Part shown: positions 6,934-27,975 of the stretch, piece by piece
How the letters are laid out: every line of letters starts with the position of its first letter
How positions within the stretch are numbered: the stretch's first letter is position 1
Assembly: GCA_014190475.1 (NCBI GenBank)
Contig: BJGL01000010.1
Location: 1 to 47,839 of the forward strand
DNA length: 47,839 nt
Reading direction: 5' to 3'
Source: Bacteroidota bacterium
GTDB taxonomy: Bacteria > Bacteroidota > Bacteroidia > Chitinophagales > Chitinophagaceae
Notes under the pieces: model-generated
What the model was told of the DNA's origin: nothing
The model's database searches: none
The model's input: only the letters and a program-made list of their open reading frames with translations
Made by a program: the position numbers and the translations under genes

Positions 6934-8382
6934 CTAGCGCAACAAAGTGAGTTGACCTTTCATGACATATCCATCGCGGAAGCGAATCAAGTAGATATAG
7001 ACCCCCGTTGGCAATGGGTTTCCCTGAAAGTTGCCATCCCAAGTGGCTGCGGTATTGGTAGCATTGAACACCACCTGGCCTGCCCTATCAAAAACTTGTA
7101 CAACTGCCCCCTCTGCTAGATCTAAATTGGGAATATTCCATCGGTCGTTTTTGCCATCACCATTTGGAGTAAAGGCCGTAGGCACATACAGTTTATCAAC
7201 TACGTTGACCGTTACAGTGTCCCGGTTTATGCATCCTTTTCGATTGGTTATATTTAAAATATAAGATTGCAGCTGTGGGGGGTCTGCAAGGGGCCCTGTT
7301 ATAAATGCATCACTTAAATAGAGAGGAGGAGTCCATTCAACTTGATTGTCCGCCATTCCATCTGAAGATCCCAGTAATTGAACAGGTCGTCCAGCAAATT
7401 TGGTTCGATCTGGCCCTGCGTTAACGAGTGGCTTTGAAAAAATATCTACCACATGAATATTGGAAGCAATCCTACAACTGGAGATCCCCAGTGAACCTGA
7501 TTCAGCCACTGTTAATCGATAAAGAAAGTAACCAGGTGCAGAGGGGTTTCTCAAAAACTGAAGGGAATTTGCACCCGGTATATCGGTCCAGGTTCTTGCT
7601 GTGTCTGTGCTCACCTGCCATTGATAAGCGGGTGCCGTGAAGCCCGCAGAAAGATTGCCTTGGTATAAAATTGGAATTTGATTGTATTCACAAACCCTAA
7701 CAGTATCCTGACCGGCCAGCGCAACAGAACGTAAGGTGGGTCCACAAGGTCTGAACTGAATATCATCTAATGCAAGGTCATTTCCACCTCCCCCCGGTGC
7801 GTTATTAGTGATCCGCAATACAACCGTATTAGTACCCAAACCCGTTGTAAAATAGAAGCCGAAAGGCTCCCAAGTGGGTTGAGAAAATACACCAATATCG
7901 CCTGTTGAATATTGATTCAATACAGCACCTGCCGTTGACTCTACCCTAAATGTTAAATTAGGTTTGATTAATGCTGGGTTGTTTACTACGTTCAAAACCC
8001 ATGCAGAAAATTCATACGTAGTATTAGGACAAAGATTAGAAACAGTTTGCAAGAAAAAATCTCCCGGGGTATTGGAAGCGTTGACCATCATAAAAGCTCC
8101 CCCACCCGTGTGATCAGCAGCTACCGAGTGCCATTGTCGACCACAGTTAGACTGAAATGTGGTAATGCTGTATTCGCCATCATTGGGGCAGGCGCCTGTG
8201 GTGAGCCGATAACCAGGTGCAGTAAACGAGTAGTTGGCTGCACCATTTCCAAAATCAATTTTTACTACCGGATCGCCAAGGCTGCCTGTGCATAACTGGG
8301 CATGTAAGTATGAATTATATAAACCTGTATAAAAAAACAGGACTAAAAATAACCTGCAGCAAAAATTGGATTTTGAAAACAC
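6934..8382 (-). CDS. Secreted surface protein with gliding/T9SS type B C-terminal sorting domain
   Basis: The preferred GTG start at 8382 gives 482 residues and a clean signal peptide (VFSKSNFCCRLFLVLFFYTG, then a cleavage region ending HAQ). A promoter box, TACATTTG, lies three bases upstream. An alternative upstream start at 8460 would overlap the divergent aminotransferase gene. The N-terminal half reads like a carbohydrate-binding-like jelly-roll (KIDFGNG, NLCPNTTYEFSAWV, FYFTTGLGTNTVVLRITNNAPGG and LALDDIQF as separate strands). An Ig/PKD-like middle follows. The end has PTAFTPNGDGKNDRW and a YIYLIRF..G..MKGQLTLLR tail. This is the gliding-motility-associated type B domain that directs export by the type IX secretion system. 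Substrate and role are unknown. Confidence 0.85.
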   Translation of the reverse strand: MFSKSNFCCRLFLVLFFYTGLYNSYLHAQLCTGSLGDPVVKIDFGNGAANYSFTAPGYRLTTGACPNDGEYSITTFQSNCGRQWHSVAADHTGGGAFMMVNASNTPGDFFLQTVSNLCPNTTYEFSAWVLNVVNNPALIKPNLTFRVESTAGAVLNQYSTGDIGVFSQPTWEPFGFYFTTGLGTNTVVLRITNNAPGGGGNDLALDDIQFRPCGPTLRSVALAGQDTVRVCEYNQIPILYQGNLSAGFTAPAYQWQVSTDTARTWTDIPGANSLQFLRNPSAPGYFLYRLTVAESGSLGISSCRIASNIHVVDIFSKPLVNAGPDRTKFAGRPVQLLGSSDGMADNQVEWTPPLYLSDAFITGPLADPPQLQSYILNITNRKGCINRDTVTVNVVDKLYVPTAFTPNGDGKNDRWNIPNLDLAEGAVVQVFDRAGQVVFNATNTAATWDGNFQGNPLPTGVYIYLIRFRDGYVMKGQLTLLR

Positions 8383-8385
8383 GCA

Positions 8386-8393
8386 CAAATGTA
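8386..8393 (-). promoter_or_regulatory. TAnnTTTG promoter box of the T9SS gene
   Basis: On the minus strand this reads TACATTTG, a perfect -7 consensus match, three bases before the GTG at 8382. It supports that start over the overlapping upstream codon and implies a nearly leaderless message. Confidence 0.5.
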
Positions 8394-8418
8394 ACCCAAT
8401 ATGAATAACCCCTGTTCT

Positions 8419-8426
8419 TACCTTTG
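8419..8426 (+). promoter_or_regulatory. TAnnTTTG promoter box of the aminotransferase gene
   Basis: TACCTTTG lies four bases before the ATG at 8431. It supports that start rather than the in-frame ATG at 8401, which would lie upstream of the promoter. Together with the opposite box at 8386-8393 it forms a compact divergent promoter pair only 25 bases apart. Confidence 0.5.
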
Positions 8427-8430
8427 TGAT

Positions 8431-9630
8431 ATGCCAGCTATTTCTACCCGAGGTGAACAAATGCCTCCCTCCCCAATTAGAAAACTAGTTCCTTATGCAG
8501 AAGCTGCAAAAAAGAAAGGAACAAAGGTTTATCATCTCAATATTGGACAGCCGGATATTGAAACTCCTGCAGCCATTATGGATGCGGTTAGAAAAGCATC
8601 CATCCCCGTGCTGGAGTATAGCCATAGTGCTGGCAATGAGAGTTACCGTAAAAAGTTAGTAGAATATTATGCTAAAGCAGGCATTTCACTTTCCCATGAG
8701 GAAATCATGATCACAGCCGGAGGAAGTGAAGCTATTCAATTTGGATTTTTTGCATGCTTGAATCCGGGCGATGAGGTAATTGTACCTGAACCCTTTTATG
8801 CTAACTATAACGGGTTTGCTTGTGCTGCGGGAGTAAAAGTTGTACCCATTACATCCATTATTGAAAAAGGGTTTGCCTTACCGCCCATTGCTGAGTTTGA
8901 AAAAGTGTTGACCACAAGATCCAAAGCAATCCTGATCTGTAACCCCAATAATCCAACGGGTTACCTCTACAGCGATCAGGAAATGGAAGCCTTGGGCCAA
9001 CTTTGTAAGAAACATGATCTCTACTTATTTAGTGACGAAGCGTACCGGGAATTTTGCTACACGGGTGAAGCGATGAGCGCACTATCCCTAAATGGCTTGG
9101 AGAAACAAGTAATAGTCATGGACACTATATCTAAACGCTATAGTGCTTGTGGAGCCCGCATTGGCGCCTTTATTACACGCAATAAAGAGGTGTATGCAAC
9201 AGCCATGAAATTTGCACAGGCGCGTTTAAGTCCTCCTGGACTTGCGCAAATCATGGGAGAGGCAGCAGTAGATCTGCCAGCTGATTTTTTTGATGCTCCC
9301 AAGGCTGAATATCAAGCCCGCCGTGACCTATTGGTCAAACGATTGAATCAAATGCCCGGTGTATTTTGTCCCAATCCCGGAGGAGCATTTTATGCGATAG
9401 CTCGCTTACCGATTGATGATTCTGATCGCTTTTGTCAATGGCTACTGGAGTCTTTTTCCTATGAAGGCCAAACGCTCATGCTGGCACCTGCTACAGGCTT
9501 CTATGGCACGGCAGGGCTTGGCAAGCAAGAGGTCCGACTGGCATACGTTTTAAACTTGACATCGATTGGAGCAGCAATGGATTGCTTAGAGAAAGCCCTT
9601 GAAGCATACCCCGGAAGGAAATTGAACTAG
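8431..9630 (+). CDS. PLP-dependent class I/II aminotransferase (aspartate aminotransferase-like)
   Basis: This 399-residue fold-type I enzyme transfers an amino group from an amino acid to a 2-oxoacid using pyridoxal phosphate. Visible marks are NIGQPD (37-42), NPNNPTG (171-177), SDEAYREF with the cofactor-contact Asp and Tyr (201-208), and the Schiff-base lysine K235 in DTISKRYSACGARIG. The start at 8431 (MPAISTRGEQMPPSPIRKL) matches the usual beginning of this Bacteroidota group. The in-frame ATG ten codons upstream lies before the promoter box and is rejected. The second DUF1573 gene follows after seven bases and is probably co-transcribed. The amino-acid preference is not certain. Confidence 0.9.
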   Translation: MPAISTRGEQMPPSPIRKLVPYAEAAKKKGTKVYHLNIGQPDIETPAAIMDAVRKASIPVLEYSHSAGNESYRKKLVEYYAKAGISLSHEEIMITAGGSEAIQFGFFACLNPGDEVIVPEPFYANYNGFACAAGVKVVPITSIIEKGFALPPIAEFEKVLTTRSKAILICNPNNPTGYLYSDQEMEALGQLCKKHDLYLFSDEAYREFCYTGEAMSALSLNGLEKQVIVMDTISKRYSACGARIGAFITRNKEVYATAMKFAQARLSPPGLAQIMGEAAVDLPADFFDAPKAEYQARRDLLVKRLNQMPGVFCPNPGGAFYAIARLPIDDSDRFCQWLLESFSYEGQTLMLAPATGFYGTAGLGKQEVRLAYVLNLTSIGAAMDCLEKALEAYPGRKLN

Positions 9631-15800: not shown

Positions 15801-16009
15801 ACAGTTCCACCATTGGGTACACTCAGGGTAAAACTACCACTGGCATCCGTAGAGGTACCATTCTTGCGATTGTTCTTTTGCACTACAGACGCACCGACAA
15901 CGGGTGCACCTTTGTCATCAAGAACCTTACCAGTTACGCTCTGCTGTGCCATCAATGTGGAAAAACAGAACGTTACTAGCGAAACGAGTAAGAGCAATTC
16001 TTTTCTCAT
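12836..16009 (-). CDS. SusC/RagA-family TonB-linked outer-membrane transporter
   Basis: From the ATG at 16009 the product is 1057 residues (a TTG two codons upstream is less likely). Its order is signal peptide (1-21), a carboxypeptidase-like regulatory domain starting SVTGKVLDDKGAPVVGASV (24-42), the SusC signature around SEVVVTSLGIKREKKALGYA (101-120), a plug domain with ITIRGVSTI and PLFVVDGVPFD (about 130-230), then a 22-strand-type barrel. It imports a SusD-captured ligand using TonB energy. It is the first gene of the operon and 182 bases separate it from the upstream symporter gene, so a promoter is expected there, although only a weak box is visible. Confidence 0.93.
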   Translation of the reverse strand: MRKELLLLVSLVTFCFSTLMAQQSVTGKVLDDKGAPVVGASVVQKNNRKNGTSTDASGSFTLSVPNGGTVLVISSVGFAATEVAASNASKVTLAASSETISEVVVTSLGIKREKKALGYAVASVDKKQLELRPEGDPMRLLQGKAPGVNILNSSGISGSGTNITIRGVSTISGNSQPLFVVDGVPFDGSTNTQGSFLYGNQTGSRFFDIDPNNIESVSVLKGLSATTQYGSLGRNGVVLITTKNGAVSRGQRKKTEITVSQSVFTNEVANIPEYTTKYGNGFNNAVGNFFSNWSSIAFTNPPMRLPHPYDRPALRGAFPELVGAKYDYKFYPSIENFFRTGVVSNTGININGGGPGLAMNANFSTLTDKGFTPENDVVRHTFGVGGNAKLTNNFTLTSSINFTTTKFKTPPTASSTGSGSDNGVSVFGDLIYTPTSVDLMNWPYQNPADGSSVYYRSGNDITNPRWTIANSRVKQNTNRAYGNVQLRYDLGKSLNFTYKIGFDNYAEEHIHEHNKGAAEFPLGFYRTTYVNRAIWDHSMLASYNTKLTDDITLNVEAGANAYINNYKQFGQYSSQQLVFDLFDHSNFITQNKTGDSGNDLDYKVEQMLLGAFGFASFGYKDYLYVNVGARSDWSSKFESANRNKVYPNVTASFIPSSAIDALRSSKVVNYLKMRLGYSTSASFGDAYQTRATLGIQANRFITSGGTVVNSNTLGGRRPNTALRPELSKETEFGIEGRLFNNRVNLDLTLYRRVNPDQILDKDLDPSSGYTVQSINAATVENKGIELGLGYTIIRNKKFNWDINTNFTLNRNKAYDFPDEIQQIGLAGYSDLGLFAFPNQPLGLIYGSKVLRDPNKGNQPVVGPDGNYIVDPTLGILGDSNPDFQLTGITNFSYKRLSFRMQWDYSRGGDMFAMTPLILLSRGVTKDTEVDRQQMWVIPGVNQAGEPNNVQISVSDVFFNNRLVSADEFGVWDATVIRLREASLSYSIPENLLKKSPFGSASFTVSGQNLWYKAPSFPKYTNFDPETSTLGVSSFARGFELMTAPSSRRFGASLRLTF

Positions 16010-16191
16010 TAGCAACTGATTTTTAAAATTTAGTTTGGGCTATCAAATGCAATATACCTACCGAAGGGCAGTAAATAGCACGTGAAAGCTGCATGCGAAC
16101 TTAACAAAATATTCACAAAAAAATAAAAAGTAACTAAAAATTGAATTTGAAAAAAGGGAAAAATGAGTTTACATTATTGATATTCAATAAA

Positions 16192-17400
16192 TTAAAGAGG
16201 GTTTAACTCCTTTTCCATATCCTCCCTTGAAAATAGCTCCTCGTTAATGGATAAAAAAACAGTGGCTACCCCATTTCCGATAAAGTTAGTAATAGCTCTG
16301 GCTTCAGACATAAAACGATCAACACCCAATAATAAAGCTAGTCCCTCAACGGGTATCACTTTAACTGCGCTGAGCGTGGAGGCAAGAATGATAAAACCAC
16401 TACCCGTAACGCCTGCCGCACCTTTTGAGGTCACCATTAAAACACCAAATATGGTTGCCACTTGGCCAACTGTTAAATCCACTTGAAAGACTTGTGCCAG
16501 AAAAATGATGGCCATCGAGAGATAGATAGATGTTCCATCCAAATTGAAGGAGTAACCAGTAGGGACTACCAAGCCAACTACAGAGCGATGACACCCCATT
16601 TTTTCAAGTTTGTTCATCAATGACGGAAGCGCCGCTTCTGAGGAAGATGTTCCCAACACAATCAGCAATTCTTCACGAAGGAAACGAAGAAATTTCCAAA
16701 TACTAACCTGGTAATAGCGTAAAACACTTCCCAATATGAGGATGATGAATAAGAACATAGTGATATAAACACATAACATCAACTTACCCAGCGGTAAAAG
16801 TGCCGCCAAGCCATATTTACCAATCGTAAATGCCATGCCTCCAAAAGCACCAATAGGTGAAAATTTCATTACCCACCCTAGTGCTTTAAAGAGATAGCCG
16901 GATGCCCACTGCACTTTTTCTAATGCAAGTATTTTGTAGCGGGAGCGATTTAAGAAAAGACCAATTAGAATAGAAAGAAGTAAAAACTGAATGGTTGAAT
17001 TTTCTCTAAAAAATGAAAGCATTGAAATGCCTCCACTTTTTTGATAAGCACTCACAGCCGATGGATTAATTCCTGAAGCAATGATTCCAGAACCCGGTTG
17101 TATCAAATAGGCAACTACAACTCCAATCAATAATGCAATAGTGGTAATCACTTCAAAATAAAGGATGGCCTTTCCTCCTATTCTACCTACCCTCTTCAAA
17201 CTATCCATGCCACAAATACCTGAAATAATGGTAACAATAATAATGGGGTTAATAAAAAGCTTTACTACCTCAATAAAATATTTGCCTAATGGCTGCATGG
17301 CCACAGCCATATCGGGATAAAAATGGCCCAGCAAGATTCCCAATGCAATGGCAAGCAACACCCATAGGGTGAGATTTTTTCGAATTGCTTTCAATTGCAT
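16192..17400 (-). CDS. dctA: C4-dicarboxylate:cation symporter, DctA type
   Basis: This 402-residue inner-membrane protein belongs to the DAACS family (glutamate/dicarboxylate:cation symporters). Re-entrant loop 1 has TSSSEAALP (251-259). GYSFNLDGTSIYL (282-294) and SSKGAAGVTGSGF-like TSKGAAGVTGSGF (324-336) follow, then DRFMSEARAITNFIGNGVAT (361-380). The NLDGT form, rather than NMDGT, and the C-terminal half as a whole are those of DctA, which imports succinate, fumarate, malate or related acids with protons or sodium. Its ATG overlaps the stop of the SGNH hydrolase gene by one base (TAATG), which implies translational coupling. It is the last gene of the SusC-SusD-hydrolase-transporter operon. 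No terminator is visible after it. Confidence 0.85.
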   Translation of the reverse strand: MQLKAIRKNLTLWVLLAIALGILLGHFYPDMAVAMQPLGKYFIEVVKLFINPIIIVTIISGICGMDSLKRVGRIGGKAILYFEVITTIALLIGVVVAYLIQPGSGIIASGINPSAVSAYQKSGGISMLSFFRENSTIQFLLLSILIGLFLNRSRYKILALEKVQWASGYLFKALGWVMKFSPIGAFGGMAFTIGKYGLAALLPLGKLMLCVYITMFLFIILILGSVLRYYQVSIWKFLRFLREELLIVLGTSSSEAALPSLMNKLEKMGCHRSVVGLVVPTGYSFNLDGTSIYLSMAIIFLAQVFQVDLTVGQVATIFGVLMVTSKGAAGVTGSGFIILASTLSAVKVIPVEGLALLLGVDRFMSEARAITNFIGNGVATVFLSINEELFSREDMEKELNPL

Positions 17401-18161
17401 TAGAGTGCTTGGGGGATTATGCTGTTTACCACACTAAGACCGAGCGTAATTTCCTCTTTTGTTACTTGCATAATTCTAAAAGTCTCCCCGTCACGATCAA
17501 AGTAATTAAACACTGTTGGCAATGAGGATGGTAATTGTCCAGTAATAGATTTAACAAAACACAATGCTGCAATGAAAGTGCCGAGATTACTAGGATGTGA
17601 GCCATCACTACTGTAGAGAGTGGCCTGTGGCATACTTTTCAAAAATTCCTGCCAGCTATCACCAACTCTAACTCTGGAAGCTCCACACTGTTTTGCTAAT
17701 CGCGAATAAGCGCTATTGATAACCCCTTGCGTTTCCGGCGTTTTTTCTCGTGACCATGTATTATAAATGAAGGGCCTAGCTTTTTTACTTTTAATTAGTT
17801 CACAGAGTAACCCACCGTAATATAACAAACTATCTGGTGCTTCAATTGGACGCATGCTATGGTCATGAAAAACCACAATATCATAGCTACCATTTTGAAT
17901 TAAGGTTTTTGACTTTAATCCCTTATGCTCATTCCAATGCTCGCCCAGGTTAGTACCGCCTACAGTGGACTTTGTACAAATCAATTTTGTATCAAGACTA
18001 TCTGAGATCAGCGACACCATCTGTATCAGGTTGTTGTAGTACGTATAGGAGTTGCCCACAAATAGCACGCGTAATGTGTCGCGGTTTGTTCTTGCCTGTG
18101 CATGGGAGCTAAGCAACAAGACAAAACAAATCAAAGCAAAGTATCCACGCTGAAGTTGCAC
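17400..18161 (-). CDS. Secreted SGNH/GDSL-family hydrolase (DUF4886-like)
   Basis: The 253-residue protein has a signal peptide (about 1-23, ending AQA), so it acts in the periplasm or outside. The SGNH fold is shown by block I RVLFVGNSYTYYNN with nucleophile Ser38, a Gly-Gly at 68-69 in a block II position, and block V SSDGSHPS with Asp186 and His189. Block I has GNS rather than GDS, typical of DUF4886 proteins. The block III Asn is not obvious (FHDHS at 98-102). Such enzymes cleave esters, often acyl groups on sugars. The start is GTG: no in-frame ATG is nearby. It follows SusD by 28 bases and overlaps dctA by one base. Confidence 0.8.
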   Translation of the reverse strand: MQLQRGYFALICFVLLLSSHAQARTNRDTLRVLFVGNSYTYYNNLIQMVSLISDSLDTKLICTKSTVGGTNLGEHWNEHKGLKSKTLIQNGSYDIVVFHDHSMRPIEAPDSLLYYGGLLCELIKSKKARPFIYNTWSREKTPETQGVINSAYSRLAKQCGASRVRVGDSWQEFLKSMPQATLYSSDGSHPSNLGTFIAALCFVKSITGQLPSSLPTVFNYFDRDGETFRIMQVTKEEITLGLSVVNSIIPQAL

Positions 18162-18189
18162 GATGTTTATATTAAATGCAAGGTTCTAG

Positions 18190-19776
18190 TTAAAATCCTT
18201 CGTTCTGAACCATGTTGGGATTATTCTGCACTTGTGATATGGGAATTGGTAAAATGGTTCTGTAATAATAGGAGCTGGTAGTTGCAGTATATTGTACCAG
18301 TCTGGACAACCCATTTCCTGCAGAATTAATTTTCACATAACTAGTCTTTGTGCGATTTAGATCGAATAATCGTTGCCCCTCCAAAGCAAATTCCTTTCTG
18401 CGCTCCACAATTATACTGTCGACATAAGCTACAGCTGTAATACTCCCAACAGGAGGTGTACCAAGAGTTGCAGCAAAAAGTCTGGTTGTGGTGGCTGTAT
18501 CTCTAGAACGACGAATTAGGTTAACATCGGTCAAGGAAGCATTCAATGCAGCAGCATCTCCGGTTTGGAGCGCAATTCGAGCTAAGGCCTCGCCACGACT
18601 TAAATACATTTCAGCTAGACGAAACACCTTTATATTTTCTGCGTAATTTGAAATATTAGTATACTTCAAACAGAGCGGTACGTTCACTTCTCCTCCAATA
18701 GAATTTCGATTTCCGAGCTCCACAAAGCGTCGTCTGGCATCAGTAGGCGTATAGGCTTCATAAAGTCCTTTGAATGTAGTTAATGTAGTTCCGGTGCTCC
18801 GGCTGTTCATAGACTGACGAGTTGCCAAGCATTCTCCGTACCCCAGTTGACTACACAAATAAGCATAGCTATCTGTGCCGGGGTTATCGGTGGCATTATT
18901 GGATACTTCAAAAATTGACTCAAGATTACCTACTGTTTGAAAGCTACTAAACAAGGTTGTGTAAGGAAGTAGGCTAAATCGATTTGAATTGATTACTGCT
19001 GAAGCAGCTGCAACTGCTGTAGCCCAATCCTCCTTATACACCGCGACGCGGGCTCTCAAGGCAAAAACGCCCCAACGGTTAAAGCGAATTTTAAAAAAAG
19101 CTGGGTTGGCGGCACCATTAATGATTACATCCCCAGTGGTATTGAGTCGAGTCAAGGCCTCTTGAATATCTTTTTCTATTTGAGCATATACTTCTGCTGC
19201 TGTGTTTCTTTTGGGATATACAACCTCAGTAACGTTTGTAATCGGCTTAAGTACAAGTGGAACAGAAAGGTGGCTCCCATCAGGGGTATGCGTAAGAGGA
19301 CGAGAGAAAAACTTTGCAAGATCAAAATAGGCCATGGCACGCACTGCATAGGCCTCCCCAACCATTTGTTTTACTTCGGCTGTTTCAATAGAAGTAGCGA
19401 TTCCCAGCAGCTTGCTTTCGTTAGCAATAATCGCATTGGCATTGGTGATAACACGATAGATCTGCGACCACATCCTGCTTACGTTTGCGTCAGTAGCCGT
19501 GTGTGTCATCGTGTTCATTCCTGTATAGCGATTACCTGTTTTAACACTTCGTGTCATATTATCCGAGAGCACCTCTGGAATGACCATAGCATCCCTTCCA
19601 TAATAACTGTAAGACTGCATGAGTGAATACAACCCATTTACAGCAGCTCGGGCAGTTGGCATACTGGAAAATACATCCTCAGTAAAAACGCTTTGCTGAG
19701 GCTTTAAATCGGTAAAACTTTTTTTACAAGACGCCAGTAGTGCCAGCGAAAGGAAAAGAAGAATACTATTTTTCAT
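18190..19776 (-). CDS. SusD/RagB-family outer-membrane lipoprotein
   Basis: The 528-residue lipoprotein has lipobox LLASC (Cys17), then KKSFTDLKPQQSVFTEDVFSS. This is the classic RagB/SusD start with an N-terminal SusD-like_3 domain. Tetratricopeptide-like helices follow (AYAVRAMAYFDLAKFF near residue 140). The C-terminal part has the SusD mark ERRKEFALEGQRLFDLNRT (about 455-475), involved in the SusD fold. It starts 20 bases after the SusC stop and leads into the SGNH hydrolase gene after 28 bases. It is of a different subtype from the SusD at 11118, so the two import systems are not tandem copies. Confidence 0.92.
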   Translation of the reverse strand: MKNSILLFLSLALLASCKKSFTDLKPQQSVFTEDVFSSMPTARAAVNGLYSLMQSYSYYGRDAMVIPEVLSDNMTRSVKTGNRYTGMNTMTHTATDANVSRMWSQIYRVITNANAIIANESKLLGIATSIETAEVKQMVGEAYAVRAMAYFDLAKFFSRPLTHTPDGSHLSVPLVLKPITNVTEVVYPKRNTAAEVYAQIEKDIQEALTRLNTTGDVIINGAANPAFFKIRFNRWGVFALRARVAVYKEDWATAVAAASAVINSNRFSLLPYTTLFSSFQTVGNLESIFEVSNNATDNPGTDSYAYLCSQLGYGECLATRQSMNSRSTGTTLTTFKGLYEAYTPTDARRRFVELGNRNSIGGEVNVPLCLKYTNISNYAENIKVFRLAEMYLSRGEALARIALQTGDAAALNASLTDVNLIRRSRDTATTTRLFAATLGTPPVGSITAVAYVDSIIVERRKEFALEGQRLFDLNRTKTSYVKINSAGNGLSRLVQYTATTSSYYYRTILPIPISQVQNNPNMVQNEGF

Positions 19777-19796
19777 GGTATATTAAATTAAGTTGA

Positions 19797-22700
19797 TTAG
19801 AAGGTTATGTCGAGACCAAAAAGAATAGTGCCGAAAATCGGCGGATTTTGACTAAGCGTTCCGCTTATATCTGTCTCGGGGTCTGTGTTAAATCGCTTGT
19901 CTTTAACGTAGGTAAATAAATTCTGGCCGCGCGCATATACTCGCATTGAACTAATTTTTGACTTCGCTAAGTATTGCTTGGGCACCGTGTAGGTAAGCGA
20001 TATATCACGTAGACGAATATAACTTCCATCATAAATAAAGCGGCTGCTTTCATAGCTACCTGCTGATGACTGTGTACCTAGAAATACCGGCTTGGGCACA
20101 TCCGTGATTTGGCCTGGTCTTGTCCAACGACGGCGATACTCATATTTGCTTAAACCATTGCTCTGATCAGTAAATCCAAGATTCGCATCTGATTTTTGTA
20201 AGTAACCATACGAATCATAAATCTGATTACCCCAGAAAACATATAACTGAAAACTTAATTTAAAGTCGCCGTAGGATAAATTGTTGGTAATACCCCCAAA
20301 GAATTTAGGCAATGCACTACCCATAGCTATTCGAGGCAACGCAGTTGTAAATAAATTGGTGGTAGAATCCTTGCGATCATTCGTATACCAAAGCGCTTCT
20401 CCATTCGCTGGGTTCACCCCTGCATAGGCACGCTGGTAATGGGTATAATAATCAAACCCTACCCGACGATAATAATCGCCAGAGGTTGAAAACAGAGAAT
20501 CAATATCTGTAATAACATTTCGATTAGTGGTGAAGTTGAAATCCGTAACCCATTTGAATCCTTTTTGCTTTTTTGGGGCCACGTTCACCGTAGAAAGTGC
20601 AACCTCTACACCACTGTTCTTCATGGCACCGTTATTAACTGTTATACTAGTCACGCCATTTACACTGGGAATAGACTGGCTAATCAACAACTCAGAGGAA
20701 ACACGGGAGTACCAATCTACATTTCCACTCACTCTTCCTTTAAATAGAGAAAAGTCTACTCCGAAATCTAACGGTATGTTTTTTTCCCAGGTCAGATTAT
20801 CATTTGCTAATTGGTTGAGCGTAATACCTGAAGTTTGGTTGTAATCAGAACCGGCGGTATACAAACCTTGGGAAACGAAATTATCTATACCCTGATTTCC
20901 AGTGTACCCGTAACTACCCCGCAACTTCATTTCACTAATCCACTTTGATTTCATGAAGGGCTCATTAGAAATATTCCACCCAAAACCAACTGACCAGAAA
21001 ATTTCTGACTGATAGTTTTTAGCAAAACGAGAGGATGCATCCTGACGAATAGATCCTGTCAAAAAGTAACGATCTACATACCCATAATTAGCATTGATGA
21101 ACTTACTTACTATGGTATTCATTGTACCCGTACCGGTTGCCGTTTCAATTTGTGAACCACCAGCAGGTGTGCTAGTGCCTGGCGCAATACCATTTACCAC
21201 CACGGTCATATCCACATCAGAGCGACTTTGGGCTTCATACCCTCCAAAAGCTTCAATCTCATGTCCGCGGCCGAATTCACTTTTATATCGAAGAATATTT
21301 GTGCTGATCCAGTTAACGATATCTTGAGAGAAGTTTTGGATACTTCCGCCTACAGCAACAAATGCATTACCAACTCTCGGGTCATTATAAATTGTGCGAT
21401 AAGCATGGTTAAAATCAAGGGCAAAACTTCCTTCGTAGGTTAATCCCTTTAACAATTGATATTTAGTGGAAGCATTCGCACCAATATTATATGTCTTTGC
21501 AATCCGTTTGGTAGTGGCAATAACAGCTGCAGGATTATACCCACTGTTGTACCCCAACTCCCAACTGACACCATCGCTTTTATAAACAGGTAACCAAGGT
21601 GCTAGACGATACATTGCACGAGTAGGATTAGCAAAGAATGAACCTCCGGGAAAATCAGTATTACGTTGGAAATTTCCACTAAAACCTCCTTTAATTCTCC
21701 AGCGGTTTGTCAATTCTGCGCTTGCGTTAACCCTGTAGGTTGCTCGATCATAGTCCACTCCTTTAATAGGCGCCTCAGCCTTGTAGTAGCTTCCGGACAT
21801 ATAGAACGTTGATTTATCATTACCTCCACTTGCACTTAGATTGTATTGGCTGAATTTACCCTGACGCATGACTACATCAAACCAATCTGTATTGATACTT
21901 CGACTAACCCCATTAGCGACTAATGCAGAGTCATAAGAAGCAGGATTCCGTCCAGCATTAATCCAACCCTCTTTGAAATATTGTATATACTCGTCGGTAT
22001 TCAACGTTTTTTGCTCGTCGCGTAAAGTATTATTGATCATACCTTGTTGGACTGTAATATTGATCTTAGCTTTTCCTGGTTTACCGTTCTTGGTAGTAAT
22101 CAAAATAACGCCGTTCGCAGCACGTGATCCATACAAGGAAGTAGCAGAGGCGTCTTTTAATACAGTTAAACTTTGGATATCATTAGGATTAAGACCTGCG
22201 ATGGTATTGGAGTTTCCTCCAGAAATATCGCCACTCACCACTGGAATTCCATCAATAACATATAGAGGAGCAGCACCAGCATTGATAGAACCGATACCCC
22301 GTATACGAACATTAGGAACTGAACCCGGCTGTCCGCTTCCGTTTTGTGATTGAAGTCCGGCAACATTTCCTTGCAGGCTTTCTTGAATAGATGTACTTGG
22401 CGCGTTTTCTAAAACGGCAGGTTTAACCGTTGCGGCTGAGCCTGTAATAGATGATCTCTTTTGAGTGCCATAGGCCACAACCATAACCTCCGAAAGATTA
22501 TTGTCGGATTCTTCCAAAAGCACCATCAGGCTTGTCGTAGCATTGTCAATCCCCTTGATTGTTTTACTGATCATGTTTACGCTCGAAAATTCAAGCGACT
22601 GCCCTTTTTGGATTTCTATCTTGAAACTACCGTCTGCTTTGGTAGAAGTACCCTGACGTGTGCCAGCAGGGCGAACAGAAACGTTTTCAAGCGGAAGATT

Positions 22701-22820
22701 TTCTTTAGCTGATAAGACTTTCCCTGAAACCTGTATGGTTTGGGCATCAGCAACCTGTGAGAAAAAGACGCTGGCTGCGAGCAGGAGTGCGCCTCCAATC
22801 CTGGATGCGATTTTTTTCAT
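19797..22820 (-). CDS. SusC/RagA-family TonB-linked outer-membrane transporter (second system)
   Basis: From the ATG at 22820 the product is 1007 residues (a TTG at 22826 is in frame but less likely). It has a signal peptide (1-27), a carboxypeptidase-like regulatory domain (ISGKV-type, about 28-105), and the SusC signature around LSEVMVVAYGTQKRSSITGS. The plug contains VRIRGIGSINAGAAPLYVID and SLTVLKDASATSLYGSRAAN, and a large barrel with an aromatic end (DITF) follows. It is the first gene of a four-gene operon with SusD, an SGNH hydrolase and a DctA symporter. The gene is divergent from the GGT-like gene at 22940, with 119 bases between the starts for both promoters. Confidence 0.93.
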   Translation of the reverse strand: MKKIASRIGGALLLAASVFFSQVADAQTIQVSGKVLSAKENLPLENVSVRPAGTRQGTSTKADGSFKIEIQKGQSLEFSSVNMISKTIKGIDNATTSLMVLLEESDNNLSEVMVVAYGTQKRSSITGSAATVKPAVLENAPSTSIQESLQGNVAGLQSQNGSGQPGSVPNVRIRGIGSINAGAAPLYVIDGIPVVSGDISGGNSNTIAGLNPNDIQSLTVLKDASATSLYGSRAANGVILITTKNGKPGKAKINITVQQGMINNTLRDEQKTLNTDEYIQYFKEGWINAGRNPASYDSALVANGVSRSINTDWFDVVMRQGKFSQYNLSASGGNDKSTFYMSGSYYKAEAPIKGVDYDRATYRVNASAELTNRWRIKGGFSGNFQRNTDFPGGSFFANPTRAMYRLAPWLPVYKSDGVSWELGYNSGYNPAAVIATTKRIAKTYNIGANASTKYQLLKGLTYEGSFALDFNHAYRTIYNDPRVGNAFVAVGGSIQNFSQDIVNWISTNILRYKSEFGRGHEIEAFGGYEAQSRSDVDMTVVVNGIAPGTSTPAGGSQIETATGTGTMNTIVSKFINANYGYVDRYFLTGSIRQDASSRFAKNYQSEIFWSVGFGWNISNEPFMKSKWISEMKLRGSYGYTGNQGIDNFVSQGLYTAGSDYNQTSGITLNQLANDNLTWEKNIPLDFGVDFSLFKGRVSGNVDWYSRVSSELLISQSIPSVNGVTSITVNNGAMKNSGVEVALSTVNVAPKKQKGFKWVTDFNFTTNRNVITDIDSLFSTSGDYYRRVGFDYYTHYQRAYAGVNPANGEALWYTNDRKDSTTNLFTTALPRIAMGSALPKFFGGITNNLSYGDFKLSFQLYVFWGNQIYDSYGYLQKSDANLGFTDQSNGLSKYEYRRRWTRPGQITDVPKPVFLGTQSSAGSYESSRFIYDGSYIRLRDISLTYTVPKQYLAKSKISSMRVYARGQNLFTYVKDKRFNTDPETDISGTLSQNPPIFGTILFGLDITF

Positions 22821-22939
22821 AAGCAAGAGATTTGGTAGTTTAAGAACGAATATACATCTTAAAATAAATTCATAGGTTCACAGGTCTAATAAAACTAATT
22901 TGTGTCCTACAAAAGACATTTTCTTATCAAGAATCTAAT

Positions 22940-24511
22940 ATGAAAAACAGCCTACTTGTTCTACTTTTCCTATGCAATATTGGCTTGCTTGCTCAACAAA
23001 AAATTGACAGCGCTAATTCAATGGTTGCCTGCGCACATCCTTTAGCTGCTGCCGCAGGAGCAGTCGTTTTAAAACAGGGAGGAAATGCATACGATGCTAT
23101 CACGGCCGCTGCATTTGCATTAAGTGTGGTAGAGCCCTCCATGAGTGGGTTAGGTGGTCGTCTTCAGGTTATACACAGAAATAGCAAAGGAAAGATCAAA
23201 GGAATTGATGCCACTACACAGGTTCCCGCTTCTTATGTACCCGAGACCGCCAATCAAGAAGATGGCTACACTACAATTGGCGTGCCAGGAGTCGTAAAAG
23301 GACTTATTGAGCTACACCACTCAAACGGCCTACTATCTCTACAGCAAGTAATGGCACCAGCCATACAATATGCCAAGGAAGGTTTTCAACTACTTCCAGA
23401 CGAAGCCGATCGATTAAAATCAGTAAAAAAAGATTTACAAATTTTTGAAGCCACCAAAAAGCATTTTTTTGTGGGTGATTCGCTCCCTAAAGGAGGAGAT
23501 TGGCTTAAGCAACCAGCCCTTGCTTCTACATTAGCATCCATTGCAAATGACAAAGGAGAATCATTTTATAAAGGCCCCCTTGCCGCATCACTGATCAAAC
23601 AAGTAAAAGCAGGCGGCGGATATTTAGCATGGGAAGACATGCTTAATTATCGTGCTGAGAATGCTACTCTTTTAAGAGGTACATATAGAGGTTTTGAGAT
23701 TGTCACTATTGGAATGCCTGCATACGGAGCGATCGTGATTGAGATGCTTCACCTGCTTGCACAAAATGATTTAAAGAATTGTACAGAGGAAGAATTTTTG
23801 CTCAAACACGCCAGCGTTCATCAACTTGCTTACGAAGACCGAAAATTTTTAAAGTCAGATCAAGAAAAGTTGACCCGACTTGAATATGCAAAAAAGAGAT
23901 GGCAGGATGCCAACAATAAACAACAAACCCTTACGGATAGTATTGGTTTTCAGAATGGACATACTACGCATCTGGTAGCCAGTGATGCATCTGGTAATAT
24001 TATAAGCCTGACACAATCCCTGGGTCCTACTATGGGATCTAAAGTTGCCGCAGAAGATGGAGGTTTTATGTTAGCCACAACAATGGGACCCTACCTTGGA
24101 AAAATGAACCCCGGCGAACGGGCATCTTCCCATATTGCGCCAGTTCTCATTTTTAAAGATGGAAAACCCTTTATGAGTATTGGAGCAGCCGGAGGGGCTC
24201 GCATTGTTCCTGCCATTGTTCAAACAATCAGCCGAATCATTGACAGGGATCTACCTATTGAACAAGCCCTTGCTGCAGCGCGAGTGTTTCAATTACCCGA
24301 AAAACTTTTAATTGAGAATCATCCAACCATTTTTTGGGAAAACTCCTCTACGCTGAATTTAATCAAGGAAAAGATTAAGCGTATAGAAATCATAAACAAA
24401 CCTGCTCAATTTGGAAGAGTGCATGCCACAATTGCCAGTACTACTGGTAAATGGATCGGCGCTGCAGATCCAGACTGGTCCGGAGTTGCAATCGGAGTGA
24501 CCAACCACTAA
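22940..24511 (+). CDS. Gamma-glutamyltransferase-like Ntn hydrolase, secreted
   Basis: The 523-residue proenzyme has a signal peptide (1-20) and the GGT fold: GGNAYDAITAAAFALSVVEP near 48-66, GLGG (70-73), and the autocleavage site HTTH with predicted catalytic Thr342. SS (396-397) and GAAGGARI (415-422) follow. Cleavage before Thr342 would give large and small subunits. Residues that hold the gamma-glutamyl group in classic GGT are changed: the REMAP arginine region reads DATTQVPAS, and the NNQMDDF region reads ATTMGPY. The fold and catalysis look intact but the acyl group may not be glutamyl. It is divergent from the SusC gene. Confidence 0.85.
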   Translation: MKNSLLVLLFLCNIGLLAQQKIDSANSMVACAHPLAAAAGAVVLKQGGNAYDAITAAAFALSVVEPSMSGLGGRLQVIHRNSKGKIKGIDATTQVPASYVPETANQEDGYTTIGVPGVVKGLIELHHSNGLLSLQQVMAPAIQYAKEGFQLLPDEADRLKSVKKDLQIFEATKKHFFVGDSLPKGGDWLKQPALASTLASIANDKGESFYKGPLAASLIKQVKAGGGYLAWEDMLNYRAENATLLRGTYRGFEIVTIGMPAYGAIVIEMLHLLAQNDLKNCTEEEFLLKHASVHQLAYEDRKFLKSDQEKLTRLEYAKKRWQDANNKQQTLTDSIGFQNGHTTHLVASDASGNIISLTQSLGPTMGSKVAAEDGGFMLATTMGPYLGKMNPGERASSHIAPVLIFKDGKPFMSIGAAGGARIVPAIVQTISRIIDRDLPIEQALAAARVFQLPEKLLIENHPTIFWENSSTLNLIKEKIKRIEIINKPAQFGRVHATIASTTGKWIGAADPDWSGVAIGVTNH

Positions 24512-24784: not shown

Positions 24785-25939
24785 TTAATGTTGCCTTTTA
24801 GTCTCGGCGATTTGTTTTTTTAGTTGTATTACTTCCTGCAATGTAGCTTGTACCAACTGTTGCTGTCTTAATAAATCGGATTTAAGCTCCCCGATAAGAT
24901 GCTGCTGCTCTTTGATAGCCTCAATTAACAGCCCAGCCGTTTCTCCATAATTAATCCCATAAAACCCGTCGGCTTTATTCTGAAAGACCAATTCAGGCAC
25001 TACCGATAAAACTTCCTGCGCAATCATTCCCATCATCCGTTTTGGCAGGGAAGTATCCTTCCAATTATAAGTTACTCCTCGTAATGCCAATACTTTTTCT
25101 AAAGGCTGGGTAATTGTTGCGATATCACGCTTTAGCCGTAGATCAGACGCAGCAGTAGTTAATGTACCGTCCGCACGAAGATTAAGATCCTGGGTATATC
25201 CCCCAGAATTCACAAAGTAAAAACGAGCTGTAGGAGCATAAATATCGCCATTCACTTGTAATTTATAAGCTCCTGCATCCGATGTAGTGTTGACCAAAAG
25301 CTCTCCGGCGGAATTCACAACTACGTGGGGTTTAACAGAGGGCTGATCATTTAAATTTCCTTGAAGCACCAATCCTCCATCTAAACTTCCATCTGATATA
25401 ATGGATCCCCCCACTGCATTACCAGCTGAATTTCTAACTCCGAAATTCAATTGCGCCTTTAAGTTATTTCCTCCCCTAGCAATTAATGAAGTAAACAGTG
25501 ATGTATTTCCCGTTTCATTCACTTGAAATTTTTCAGTGGGGGCAGAAGTTCCGATACCAAGTCTACGGTTAGTTGCATCCCAAAAAAATTCATTGGAACC
25601 TGCCTGAGTATTAGCCCCGCTCCAATATACCACTTGTCCACTTGAGCCACTTCCAGCACCGCTAGTGGGGGTACTCCAATTTAATGTGGCTATTCCTGCG
25701 TTAACTGTACTAACTGATAAAATTTGATTAGCCAGCGGCAATGCAGCAGGATAAATTAAAGAATAGGAATTGGCACCAGTGGGAGGTCGCAAACTAATTG
25801 TATTACCAGTTTGGCCGACCAGACGGACTTCTTTTTGAGCAGTAGGACGTATTGATTGCGCCCACAGAACTGGAAAAAATTTTTCTGCCGGCCCCATCAA
25901 AAGAGCCAGCAGAAAAAATAATTTATAAGGTTTATTCAC
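24785..25939 (-). CDS. Secreted tail-fibre-like protein with peptidase S74 (intramolecular chaperone) domain
   Basis: This 384-residue protein has a GTG start and a signal peptide (about 1-28). The N-terminal module (36-92) begins KEVRLVGQTG and contains PLANQILSVS; it is shared with the next gene upstream. The middle has the GIGTSAPTEKFQVN and YKLQVNGDIYAP repeats common in trimeric fibre proteins. The end (about 263-384) is an S74 chaperone domain with SDLRLKRDI, giving the Ser265/Lys270 pair expected for self-cleavage, then MMGMIAQEVLSVVPELV and a coiled coil (about 340-380). Such domains trimerise the fibre and then cut themselves off. No other phage genes are near, so this is a chromosomal surface protein. 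Confidence 0.82.
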   Translation of the reverse strand: MNKPYKLFFLLALLMGPAEKFFPVLWAQSIRPTAQKEVRLVGQTGNTISLRPPTGANSYSLIYPAALPLANQILSVSTVNAGIATLNWSTPTSGAGSGSSGQVVYWSGANTQAGSNEFFWDATNRRLGIGTSAPTEKFQVNETGNTSLFTSLIARGGNNLKAQLNFGVRNSAGNAVGGSIISDGSLDGGLVLQGNLNDQPSVKPHVVVNSAGELLVNTTSDAGAYKLQVNGDIYAPTARFYFVNSGGYTQDLNLRADGTLTTAASDLRLKRDIATITQPLEKVLALRGVTYNWKDTSLPKRMMGMIAQEVLSVVPELVFQNKADGFYGINYGETAGLLIEAIKEQQHLIGELKSDLLRQQQLVQATLQEVIQLKKQIAETKRQH

Positions 25940-25957
25940 AATACTTATAATAAATGA

Positions 25958-26899
25958 TTACTGATTAATTACAGTCCAATTGCAGCTACCTGTAAATGGC
26001 GCAGAGAAATAGATCGTAAAACCACTGCCTGAGCGTACTACATAGTAAGAAGGAATTGGCATATCAATAGCGCTTCCTTCAAGCGTTACATTGATTGCAT
26101 CGTTTGTATCCACTGAAGTCGCTACTGCAATCGATTCATTTCCAGGAACGGTTACGAGTCCTCTACCCTTTACAAAGGCACTACTCCAGGTAGGCGCAGC
26201 ACCCGCACCATTAGACTGTAGAATTTCACCCGGATTTCCAGCTGCTCCATTCAACTGAAGAGCACTTGTACCTATTAAGTTTAATCCACCAGTAATTGCA
26301 GCTCCGTTATTAGCGGTTAGTAATCCTGTTACAGTTAACGGCCCTCCTACAGTTACCCCGCTTGTGTTTGTACTTAACCCTACCGCCACTACAGAAGCAT
26401 AACTTGCCTTAGAAACTAAACCGTTTGCATCAGAGATTACCACGCCTTCATTTGTTGCAGAAGAAGAAGCAGCACCGGTTGTACCCGATAATGTGTTCAT
26501 CGTGATACCCCCATCTGCAGCAACAGTCATTCGTGTACTTCCATTTGTTTTAACTACCAATGGTTGTGCGTCGGTTGTTCCCAAATAATTGTTTTCGTTT
26601 GTTCCCGTATTCCCCGTCAATGACCAACCAGTGGCATCAGGCGAATTCCACGCCAAGGTTACCGCACTTCCTGAAATATTACTTACAGTTAGCACCTGGT
26701 TGGCAAGAGGTGCCGCGGTAGGCATGGTTAATGAATACGTAGAGGTACCCGATGCCGCTTTCAGTCCAATAAATCCAGTTGGGCCGGTAGGATTTACTAA
26801 TCGAACCTCACGTTGAATGGTGGGTGACTGAGCCATTGATTTAAGGCAGGCGCCTGTTAACAAAATCAAAGTGGCCGTTACAATCCGAAAGTGTTTCAT
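25958..26899 (-). CDS. Secreted modular surface protein (shared N- and C-terminal modules)
   Basis: The 313-residue protein has a signal peptide (about 1-23). Its N-terminal module (REVRLVNPTG, STYSLTMPTAAPLANQVLTVS) matches that of the downstream S74 protein. Its last 60 residues (VDTNDAINVTLEG, PIPSYYVVRSGSG, FSAPFTGSCNWTVIN) match the end of the upstream 346-residue protein. The middle is Gly/Ser/Thr/Asn-rich with fibre-like repeats and few charged residues. No enzyme motif is seen. It starts 35 bases after the preceding gene. It probably forms a fibre or coat on the cell surface; this is inferred from composition. Confidence 0.7.
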   Translation of the reverse strand: MKHFRIVTATLILLTGACLKSMAQSPTIQREVRLVNPTGPTGFIGLKAASGTSTYSLTMPTAAPLANQVLTVSNISGSAVTLAWNSPDATGWSLTGNTGTNENNYLGTTDAQPLVVKTNGSTRMTVAADGGITMNTLSGTTGAASSSATNEGVVISDANGLVSKASYASVVAVGLSTNTSGVTVGGPLTVTGLLTANNGAAITGGLNLIGTSALQLNGAAGNPGEILQSNGAGAAPTWSSAFVKGRGLVTVPGNESIAVATSVDTNDAINVTLEGSAIDMPIPSYYVVRSGSGFTIYFSAPFTGSCNWTVINQ

Positions 26900-26934
26900 A
26901 GTTGTTTGTTTATTTGGTTTTTAAAATTTCAGTT

Positions 26935-27975
26935 TTAATCAACAATTACCCAGGTTACAAATCCTGTAAAAGGAGCAGTAAAATGAACCTCTACCCTGTT
27001 GTTAGGAATATCTCGATAGATATAATAATTAGGAACTGGCCTTGGCACTGCATCAACTTCCATGAGCACACTAATTCCGTCATTACTATCTAACCCGTTA
27101 ACAGGTATAAAAAATACTTCAGCTGCCGTAAGCACAACGCTCCGACTTTTAGATTTTACGCCCAACACCGATTGTGCAGATACCCATTGGGGAGAAAAAC
27201 CAGCACCTCGCGATACCAACAAATCACCCGATGAACCGCTCTGATTATCGATCAAAAGCGGAGTACTATTTCCTTGCAATGAAAGTGAGCCAGCTACCAT
27301 AATACCAGCATTCGCTTGAAGTGATTGCAAAAAAGACTTTTCGCCGCCAACTTGTTGCTGAGTACTGAGATCAACAAAATTTTTAACGGATGAACCTGTT
27401 CCACCATTAGCAATACCAAGTATTCCTCCCAAGACCACATTCCCCTGAGAAGCAGTAGTGGGCGATAATCCTGTTGTGCCCCCACTGAAACTTAGCACCG
27501 CCGCACTTGCAGCAACTTGTTCGGCCATAAGTGCAGTACCCGCGTAAGGAACTAAACCAAATGGAGAAGCACCCAGATCAATCCATTCATTTTGATAATT
27601 CCAGTTCACCACATTCGCAATCGGCTCTATTGCTACTTGAATTTTTAAGGAGTAATTAAGTGTCCGCCAGGGTATATTCAAGATAGAAGCATAAGTTCCT
27701 CCAACACGTGTACCATTTCCAATAATAATCTGAAATATACCCTCGCTATTTGTCCTTGACCGATGCTCCTCAATGAAAACTGGCAATCCCGCAGCAGCAC
27801 CTTGTAGAATGGAAGCTTTAATGTATATGCGTCGATCTTTTGCCGGATTATTATTTCGATCTCTTGCAATAGCTTCAAAATGAATCCCAGGCTGCTGCGC
27901 CAGAACTAAATCTACCTTAGTAATTAAGAGTAAAATAAATGCAATGAAGTAAATAAACTGATTTGCCTTTGTCAC
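26935..27975 (-). CDS. Secreted tail-fibre-like surface protein
   Basis: The 346-residue protein starts with GTG immediately after the preceding stop (TAA-GTG, no gap), which suggests coupled translation. After a signal peptide (about 1-26) comes an N-terminal domain (HFEAIARDRNNNPAKDRRIYIKA.., SEGIFQIIIGNGT) common in secreted Bacteroidota proteins. Fibre-type repeats follow, such as LGIANGGTGSS and DLSTQQQVGGEKSF. The C-terminal 60 residues (LDSNDGISVLME, PVPNYYIYRD, FTAPFTGFVTWVIVD) are homologous to the end of the protein at 25958. No catalytic motif is seen. Confidence 0.72.
   Translation of the reverse strand: MTKANQFIYFIAFILLLITKVDLVLAQQPGIHFEAIARDRNNNPAKDRRIYIKASILQGAAAGLPVFIEEHRSRTNSEGIFQIIIGNGTRVGGTYASILNIPWRTLNYSLKIQVAIEPIANVVNWNYQNEWIDLGASPFGLVPYAGTALMAEQVAASAAVLSFSGGTTGLSPTTASQGNVVLGGILGIANGGTGSSVKNFVDLSTQQQVGGEKSFLQSLQANAGIMVAGSLSLQGNSTPLLIDNQSGSSGDLLVSRGAGFSPQWVSAQSVLGVKSKSRSVVLTAAEVFFIPVNGLDSNDGISVLMEVDAVPRPVPNYYIYRDIPNNRVEVHFTAPFTGFVTWVIVD

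Follow-up and report, generated by a model that had tools for sequence, protein, structure and literature searches.

A SusC-SusD operon encoding an SGNH-fold hydrolase and a DctA-type symporter in a Chitinophagaceae bacterium: a probable utilisation locus for C4-dicarboxylate-bearing molecules

Introduction

Bacteroidota genomes contain very many SusCD pairs, made up of a TonB-dependent outer-membrane transporter (SusC) and a surface lipoprotein (SusD), and these pairs are generally interpreted as importers of sugars. The subject of this work is a run of four genes in which such a pair is followed by a secreted SGNH-fold serine hydrolase and a DctA-type symporter, in a 47,839-nucleotide stretch of DNA from a Bacteroidota bacterium of the family Chitinophagaceae (contig BJGL01000010.1 of assembly GCA_014190475.1). 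This stretch, hereafter the window, is a single contig of a 1.9-Mb genome that is 98.7% complete. Our analysis indicates that the four genes are probably a SusCD utilisation locus for an oligomer, polymer or conjugate bearing C4-dicarboxylates.

With Sus-type polysaccharide utilisation loci (PULs) the operon shares a SusC-SusD pair, a secreted hydrolase and an inner-membrane carrier in a single run of genes, but its carrier is of the C4-dicarboxylate type and no glycan enzyme is found among the proteins scanned. The nearest printed case that we met is a PUL of marine NS5 bacteria in which uronate genes adjoin a TRAP carrier for C4-dicarboxylates (PMC9122927); its carrier belongs to another family and its pathway is one for sugar acids. 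The PahZ1 system of poly(aspartic acid) degradation (Sphingomonas KT-1, Pedobacter KP-2) is related in that its monomer is a C4 dicarboxylic acid and one locus akin to ours has a homologue of PahZ1 in place of the SGNH hydrolase, but the window genome gives no match in a search with an alignment of PahZ-like proteins, the window hydrolase has another fold, and the sister genomes tested have no beta-aspartyl peptidase scoring over its cut-off. In Comamonas acidovorans, a 43-kDa outer-membrane hydrolase frees malate from polymalate for use as a carbon source; this enzyme is reported to have no serine-esterase activity, and SusCD is not mentioned in the portion of the source available (PMC9210645). 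No account of SusD together with DctA was found in the literature searched, the coverage of which mostly left out subscription journals, and the accessible portions of PMC4456602, PMC9210645, PMC7029141 and PMC9122927 do not describe a locus of this type. We find a C4-dicarboxylate SusCD locus to be new in its kind of cargo, not in its kind of machine.

Results

Layout of the operon and families of its products

All four open reading frames lie on the minus strand (loci and genomes are cited below by our own handles, L and G). The SusC/RagA-type TonB-dependent transporter (19797..22820), of a type that we name type A, starts with the ATG at 22820, the mechanically called frame beginning at a TTG at 22826. 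After 20 bases it is followed by the SusD-family surface lipoprotein (18190..19776), which has a lipobox-like LLASC by sequence reading; after 28 more by the hydrolase (17400..18161, 253 residues), with a signal peptide recognised by eye and a GTG start, no ATG being found just upstream; and, with an overlap of one base, by the symporter (16192..17400, 402 residues). Judging by this spacing, the four genes are presumably co-transcribed. A sequence-only reading of the same DNA had reported these frames, gaps and overlap as well as the families of SusC, SusD and the symporter, all of which our searches recovered. It had also invoked translational coupling of hydrolase and symporter through the TAATG stop/start overlap (17398..17402, minus strand), which is present in the window but not essential, being exact in only three of six relatives (L032, L033 and L034, not L031, L035 and L036).

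SusC matches TIGR04056 at 748 bits (cut-off 368) and the TIGR04057 signature at 66 bits, contains Plug and CarbopepD_reg_2 domains and has counterparts 66-99% identical across the related loci, some of them partial; SusD matches PF14322 (74 bits) and PF07980 (71 bits). The symporter belongs to the SDF (DAACS) family (PF00375, 313 bits against a cut-off of 27.9). Its best NCBIfam model is DctA (PRK01663), at 494.4 bits slightly below the curated cut-off of 513, and having missed that cut-off it is best described as DctA-type rather than DctA; relatives in G546, G044, G585 and G618 exceed the same cut-off, and those in G010 (508.6) and G268 (483.8) fall short of it. The motifs FNLDGT and DRFMSEAR, which we take to be typical of DctA, are invariant in all eight aligned sequences. 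The protein thus shares family and motifs with the aerobic C4-dicarboxylate symporter DctA, but differs from known DctA in its place within a SusCD operon and in its length, 402 residues against a 428-position model. Ser365 aligns with an Asp of aspartate transporters and Arg368 is retained; both positions have ligand roles, and this combination speaks against an amino-acid ligand.

The hydrolase scores 18.4 bits against DUF4886 (PF16227), below the gathering cut-off of 26.7, and its relative in G146 reaches 26.5. An AlphaFold2 model built from an 8-sequence alignment (pLDDT 84.5) superposes on the DUF4886 structure 4i8i (Z 20.8 over 206 residues, 2.4 A) and on 4s1p (Z 20.7 over 170 residues, 2.0 A); esterases, including acetylxylan esterases, come next at Z 16-17. 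Residues S38, D186 and H189 are invariant in eight of eight aligned relatives, and the predicted fold together with the GNS and DxxH active-site blocks places the protein in the SGNH superfamily. The earlier label "DUF4886-type" therefore holds as a likeness of predicted fold to 4i8i, the Pfam score staying under its cut-off. Fold and catalytic Ser, Asp and His are shared with DUF4886/SGNH hydrolases, but the window protein is a compact 253-residue form tied to a carrier gene.

Conservation of the gene order

Conservation of the order SusC-SusD-SGNH-DctA in relatives, a search proposed in the sequence-only reading, was found in all six loci (L031-L036) returned by a hydrolase pattern scan of a collection in which 84,980 species are represented by one genome apiece, a scan that reaches close relatives only. 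Hydrolase identity goes down to 56% among them, and in L031, L035 and L036 the contig stops within SusC. The relatives are Bacteroidota metagenome-assembled genomes (MAGs), that of L035 being Chitinophagaceae bacterium UBA2467. L036 is titled Sphingobacterium thalpophilum, and its locus is 56-69% identical to that of the window, which may reflect transfer or a mislabelled MAG.

Wherever the hydrolase scores above 400 bits, DctA follows and SusC-SusD precedes it (ten of ten loci: the window, L031-L036, and G146, G593 and G734); since either the hydrolase or DctA led to each of the ten, the sample is not a blind one. A search of 394 Chitinophagaceae genomes with a DctA alignment returned 30 loci, of which the five best-scoring (at least 728 bits) adjoin an SGNH gene; the remaining 25 have no SGNH gene within ~1.5 kb. 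Nor was DctA found within ~1.5 kb of any of 28 distant SGNH relatives (L003-L030) or of the SGNH matches in G452 and G207 (110 and 108 bits), the latter two having been checked in this respect only. A plasmid collection gave eight PahZ-like and 14 SGNH-like records; two of the latter were inspected, one being unannotated and the other without such a carrier.

Exchange of importer, hydrolase and carrier between related loci

In three more distant Chitinophagaceae (G146, G593 and G734), the hydrolase (49-59% identical) and DctA (68-71%) stand behind another SusCD type, with a SusC only 24-25% identical to that of the window and a SusD giving no match to the window's. A malic enzyme gene lies beside the G593 locus. 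Conversely, G640, of the same genus as the window, retains SusC (66%), SusD (65%) and DctA (66%) and has a changed hydrolase slot; the alpha/beta hydrolase encoded there finds its best match among solved structures in poly(aspartic acid) hydrolase-1 (PahZ1; E 2.6e-65). The slot in G546 holds a protein over the Pfam BD-FAE cut-off that is acetylxylan/feruloyl-esterase-like, the acetylxylan esterase models remaining below their cut-offs; next in line are DctA (663 bits), a PahZ-like gene, phosphoenolpyruvate (PEP) carboxykinase (PckA, 754 bits, NCBIfam cut-off 590) and tartrate dehydrogenase (548 bits, cut-off 470).

The carrier is exchanged as well. In three other Bacteroidota (G345, G308 and G229), the gene after the SGNH gene encodes a DASS (SLC13) carrier, which scores 305-323 bits against TIGR00785 (cut-off 199), and a type-B SusC (41-45%) accompanies the two. 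SusD is present in G345 and G308, and the stretch from G229 ends past SusC. The order in G308 is SusC-SusD-SGNH-DASS, and a PahZ-like gene (E 1.8e-51 to PahZ1) lies in the same run, bringing SGNH and PahZ-like enzymes together. The solved structures nearest to the G308 carrier are VcINDY and SLC13 proteins that carry dicarboxylate, citrate or sulfate; since DctA is not known to carry sulfate, the class common to DctA and the DASS carrier is that of dicarboxylates.

That serine hydrolases and dicarboxylate carriers interchange in the same slots supports the logic proposed in the sequence-only reading, by which the hydrolase frees the acid that DctA takes up. The ester bond, and the succinate or malate that it had given as examples, are putative. 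For one replacement hydrolase the characterised relative, PahZ1, acts on beta-amide bonds of poly(aspartate). The loci compared have in common a core of an importer, a serine hydrolase and a dicarboxylate carrier.

The same exchanges bear on whether this is an ordinary glycan locus, in which SusCD would import an acylated oligosaccharide, the SGNH enzyme strip its acetyl or succinyl groups and DctA be a mere neighbour. After DUF4886, the solved enzymes nearest in structure to the hydrolase include acetylxylan esterases, the G546 slot protein resembles acetylxylan and feruloyl esterases, and serving glycans is the usual, established role of SusCD pairs. This explanation is nonetheless improbable, as C4-acid carriers recur and an unrelated carrier family of the same substrate class can substitute. 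Moreover, no glycoside hydrolase or polysaccharide lyase was found among the 12 window proteins scanned (the four operon products and their nearest neighbours among them) nor among the scanned neighbours in related loci, most neighbours being unscanned; a CBM_4_9 match in 6934-8460, outside the operon, stays at 24.0 bits under a cut-off of 25.9. With its tandem SusC and SusD genes the locus is PUL-like, and we do not class it as a PUL.

PahZ-like genes and the polyaspartate alternative

Among the 394 Chitinophagaceae, PahZ-like genes occur in 18 places in 14 genomes, ten of them no more than 7.5 kb from an SDF carrier (G640, G546, G010 C11, G044, G585 C34, G618, G770 C288, G700, G730 and G047 C50). 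Assuming a generous six SDF genes per 4-Mb genome and ignoring kinship, the binomial probability of this proximity is ~3e-12; several of these genomes belong to one genus, so that the independent events are fewer than ten. Two further PahZ-like genes (G659 and G010 C2) come after genes for a type-A SusCD and for a secreted protein, and the other six adjoin neither (G585 C96, G770 C115, G047 C28, G595, G036 and G071), a divergent SusC gene lying near those of G770 C115 and G047 C28. A class-wide search of 395 genomes gave 13 places in 12 genomes: a DASS carrier adjoins or is one gene off in five (G308, G370, G385, G241 and G434), DctA lies within 1.4 kb in one (G268), malic enzyme adjoins in one (G499), and none of the three stands beside the gene in six.

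An alternative is that the operon scavenges polyaspartate or isoaspartyl peptides, SusCD importing aspartate oligomers, the hydrolase cutting amides and DctA carrying aspartate. The PahZ1 homologues in the G640 slot and in G308 speak for it. Elsewhere, DcuC and beta-aspartyl-peptidase-like genes occur near PahZ-like genes, the peptidase scoring over the NCBIfam cut-off in both cases tested, and M14 peptidase, porin and MocR-type regulator genes often join them; this company points to an aspartate polymer in those lineages. On a Microvirga plasmid, a PahZ-like gene lies beside an M20 peptidase and an oligopeptide ATP-binding cassette carrier. For the SusCD loci themselves this explanation is unlikely. 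Beta-aspartyl peptidase was tried as a link to them and dropped, being over cut-off in none of nine genomes with such loci (a test that left out G546, G659 and G010, and in which weak sub-threshold pieces appeared in all nine). The window hydrolase has an SGNH fold with solved neighbours that are mostly esterases and thioesterases, the window symporter has Ser where aspartate transporters have Asp, and sister loci adjoin malic enzyme and tartrate dehydrogenase.

The clusters of DcuC, beta-aspartyl-peptidase-like and PahZ-like genes (L110, L111, L112, L113, L114, L116, L117, L119 and L120), often with DASS, are candidate polyaspartate/isoaspartyl-peptide utilisation loci. In G458, a 1009-residue protein (L120:7804-10833) matches both PahZ-like hydrolases and M14 peptidases and is an apparent fusion.

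Boundaries of the operon and neighbouring genes

A second SusC-SusD pair, missing from the sequence-only reading, lies on the same strand at 16009-11118, ~180 bases past the symporter. The intergenic region 3' of DctA (16010..16191, minus strand) contains, before the second SusC, a block TTTGTGAA-N5-TGTTAAGTT that is identical in six aligned loci (the window and L031-L035) and may act as a promoter. The second pair follows DctA, at least in part, in L031-L035 and does not adjoin it in G640, G146, G593 and G734. It was considered as part of the operon and rejected on both grounds, and the operon is taken to end at DctA. The SusD of this pair is of the PF12771 type, and the run 16009-10115, which closes with a 327-residue protein without Pfam or NCBIfam match, is kept in L032-L034 up to the contig ends. 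In L035 (4129-6326) the second SusC appears as two matches parted near 4470, which may be an assembly error. Scanning 15900-23000 for promoters and terminators gave 15 and 6 hits, against 17.6 and 6.3 expected in shuffled sequence.

On the other side, a gamma-glutamyltransferase gene (22940-24511) was likewise rejected as an operon member: L032-L034 share it as divergent neighbour, but other genes take its place in G640, G146, G593 and G734. Its distance to SusC is ~0.5-1.4 kb in L032-L034 and ~0.1 kb in the window. Before SusC, G640 has a FecR gene and, by eye, an extracytoplasmic-function sigma-like gene, and G146, G593 and G734 have a member of a ~415-residue family, reg84, that is found near SusC or DctA, has one likely membrane span by eye and is possibly a regulator. 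Members of reg84 include L037:14919-16163, L084:14885-16126, L085:1671-2921, L086:12350-13609, L155:10479-11714, L158:53-2560 and L162:241-1497; the two scanned (L084 and L158) gave no Pfam match. Beside the DASS versions lie proteins, secreted or resembling lipoproteins, that carry Calx-beta or lamin-tail domains (L079:14934-16823, L082:4659-6440 and L080:10268-13612; that of L082 is labelled lamin-tail by likeness to the others, not by Pfam), which may bind substrate at the surface. G229 has a further hydrolase, a GDSL-type lipase/acylhydrolase (L080:5748-6506; PF13472, 48.7 bits) two genes off its SGNH-DASS pair. Further away in the window, 24785-27975 encodes three adjacent secreted proteins resembling tail-fibre or adhesin proteins by eye, two of them sharing 47% identity over 83 residues.

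Discussion

Utilisation of a C4-dicarboxylate-bearing oligomer, polymer or conjugate probably accounts for this operon. By analogy with their families, SusD would bind the cargo and SusC import it to the periplasm, where the SGNH hydrolase would cut an ester or, less likely, an amide bond to free a C4-dicarboxylate. The symporter, the family of which is established, would move this acid over the inner membrane, and the malic enzyme, PEP carboxykinase and tartrate dehydrogenase neighbours of sister loci suggest entry into central metabolism via malate or oxaloacetate. The freed acid is most likely malate or a close hydroxy-acid, given the esterase-type SGNH fold, the replacement of Asp by Ser in DctA, the neighbours of sister loci and the beta-aspartyl peptidase result. 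For the cargo, we favour malate or another C4 hydroxy-acid in oligomeric or polymeric form, with an aspartate polymer and acylated glycans as alternatives.

A number of findings weigh against this interpretation. The locus is patchy, the hydrolase being found in 6 of 42 genomes of the genus, that of the window included; the other five gave the same match figures as L031-L035 and were taken as identical genomes and counted once. Among 14 wider DctA neighbourhoods, SusCD lies in the same run in four (L083, L084, L085 and L093) and a lone TonB-dependent receptor in L086, most being without SusCD. No such carrier adjoins the SGNH relatives in G496, G482 and G467 (204-283 bits), and none was found within the stretch read beside the type-A SusCD and PahZ-like genes of G659 (on a contig of only 8.2 kb) and G010 C2. 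The hydrolase and carrier genes of G345 and G229 precede SusC instead of following SusD. Two DctA genes without SusCD (L091 and L092) likewise have malic enzyme next to them, so that this neighbour tells of DctA use and not of the locus as a whole. DcuC and a beta-aspartyl-peptidase-like gene occur near the PahZ-like gene in 8 of the 12 genomes of the class-wide search, the five PahZ-like plasmid regions inspected show no annotated dicarboxylate carrier, their gene tables being incomplete, and PahZ1 itself hydrolyses beta-amide bonds of poly(aspartate) according to the part of the source available (PMC4456602). Finally, bond, substrate, activity and co-transcription are predicted from the genes.

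The patchy occurrence and the many DctA genes without SusCD could mean that the four genes cluster by chance or as a leftover and do not cooperate. This is very improbable, the order being kept down to 56% hydrolase identity, with the same hydrolase-carrier pair behind two SusCD types and single slots swapped. Owing to the non-blind sampling of loci, the two type-A loci without a carrier and the unscanned majority of neighbours, our confidence in C4-dicarboxylate utilisation was slightly trimmed and that in the glycan alternative slightly raised.

More speculatively, SusCD importers of Bacteroidota may serve a polymer that is neither glycan nor protein, in which C4 dicarboxylic acids are linked as a natural polyester or polyamide, most simply beta-poly(L-malate), with SGNH and PahZ-like enzymes as depolymerases and interchangeable DctA or DASS carriers for monomer uptake. 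We regard this wider proposal as rather doubtful; if true, it would account for what PahZ1, an enzyme known from synthetic poly(aspartate), does in nature.

In sum, a freshwater-type bacterium probably imports a large acid-containing molecule through the outer membrane, has it split by a secreted hydrolase and absorbs the four-carbon acid that is freed. A locus of which the carrier and side genes point to C4 acids would broaden the reading of SusCD pairs as sugar importers and would point to the kind of substrate that PahZ1 enzymes meet in nature; it would also name a candidate route by which lake bacteria may use polymeric organic acids.

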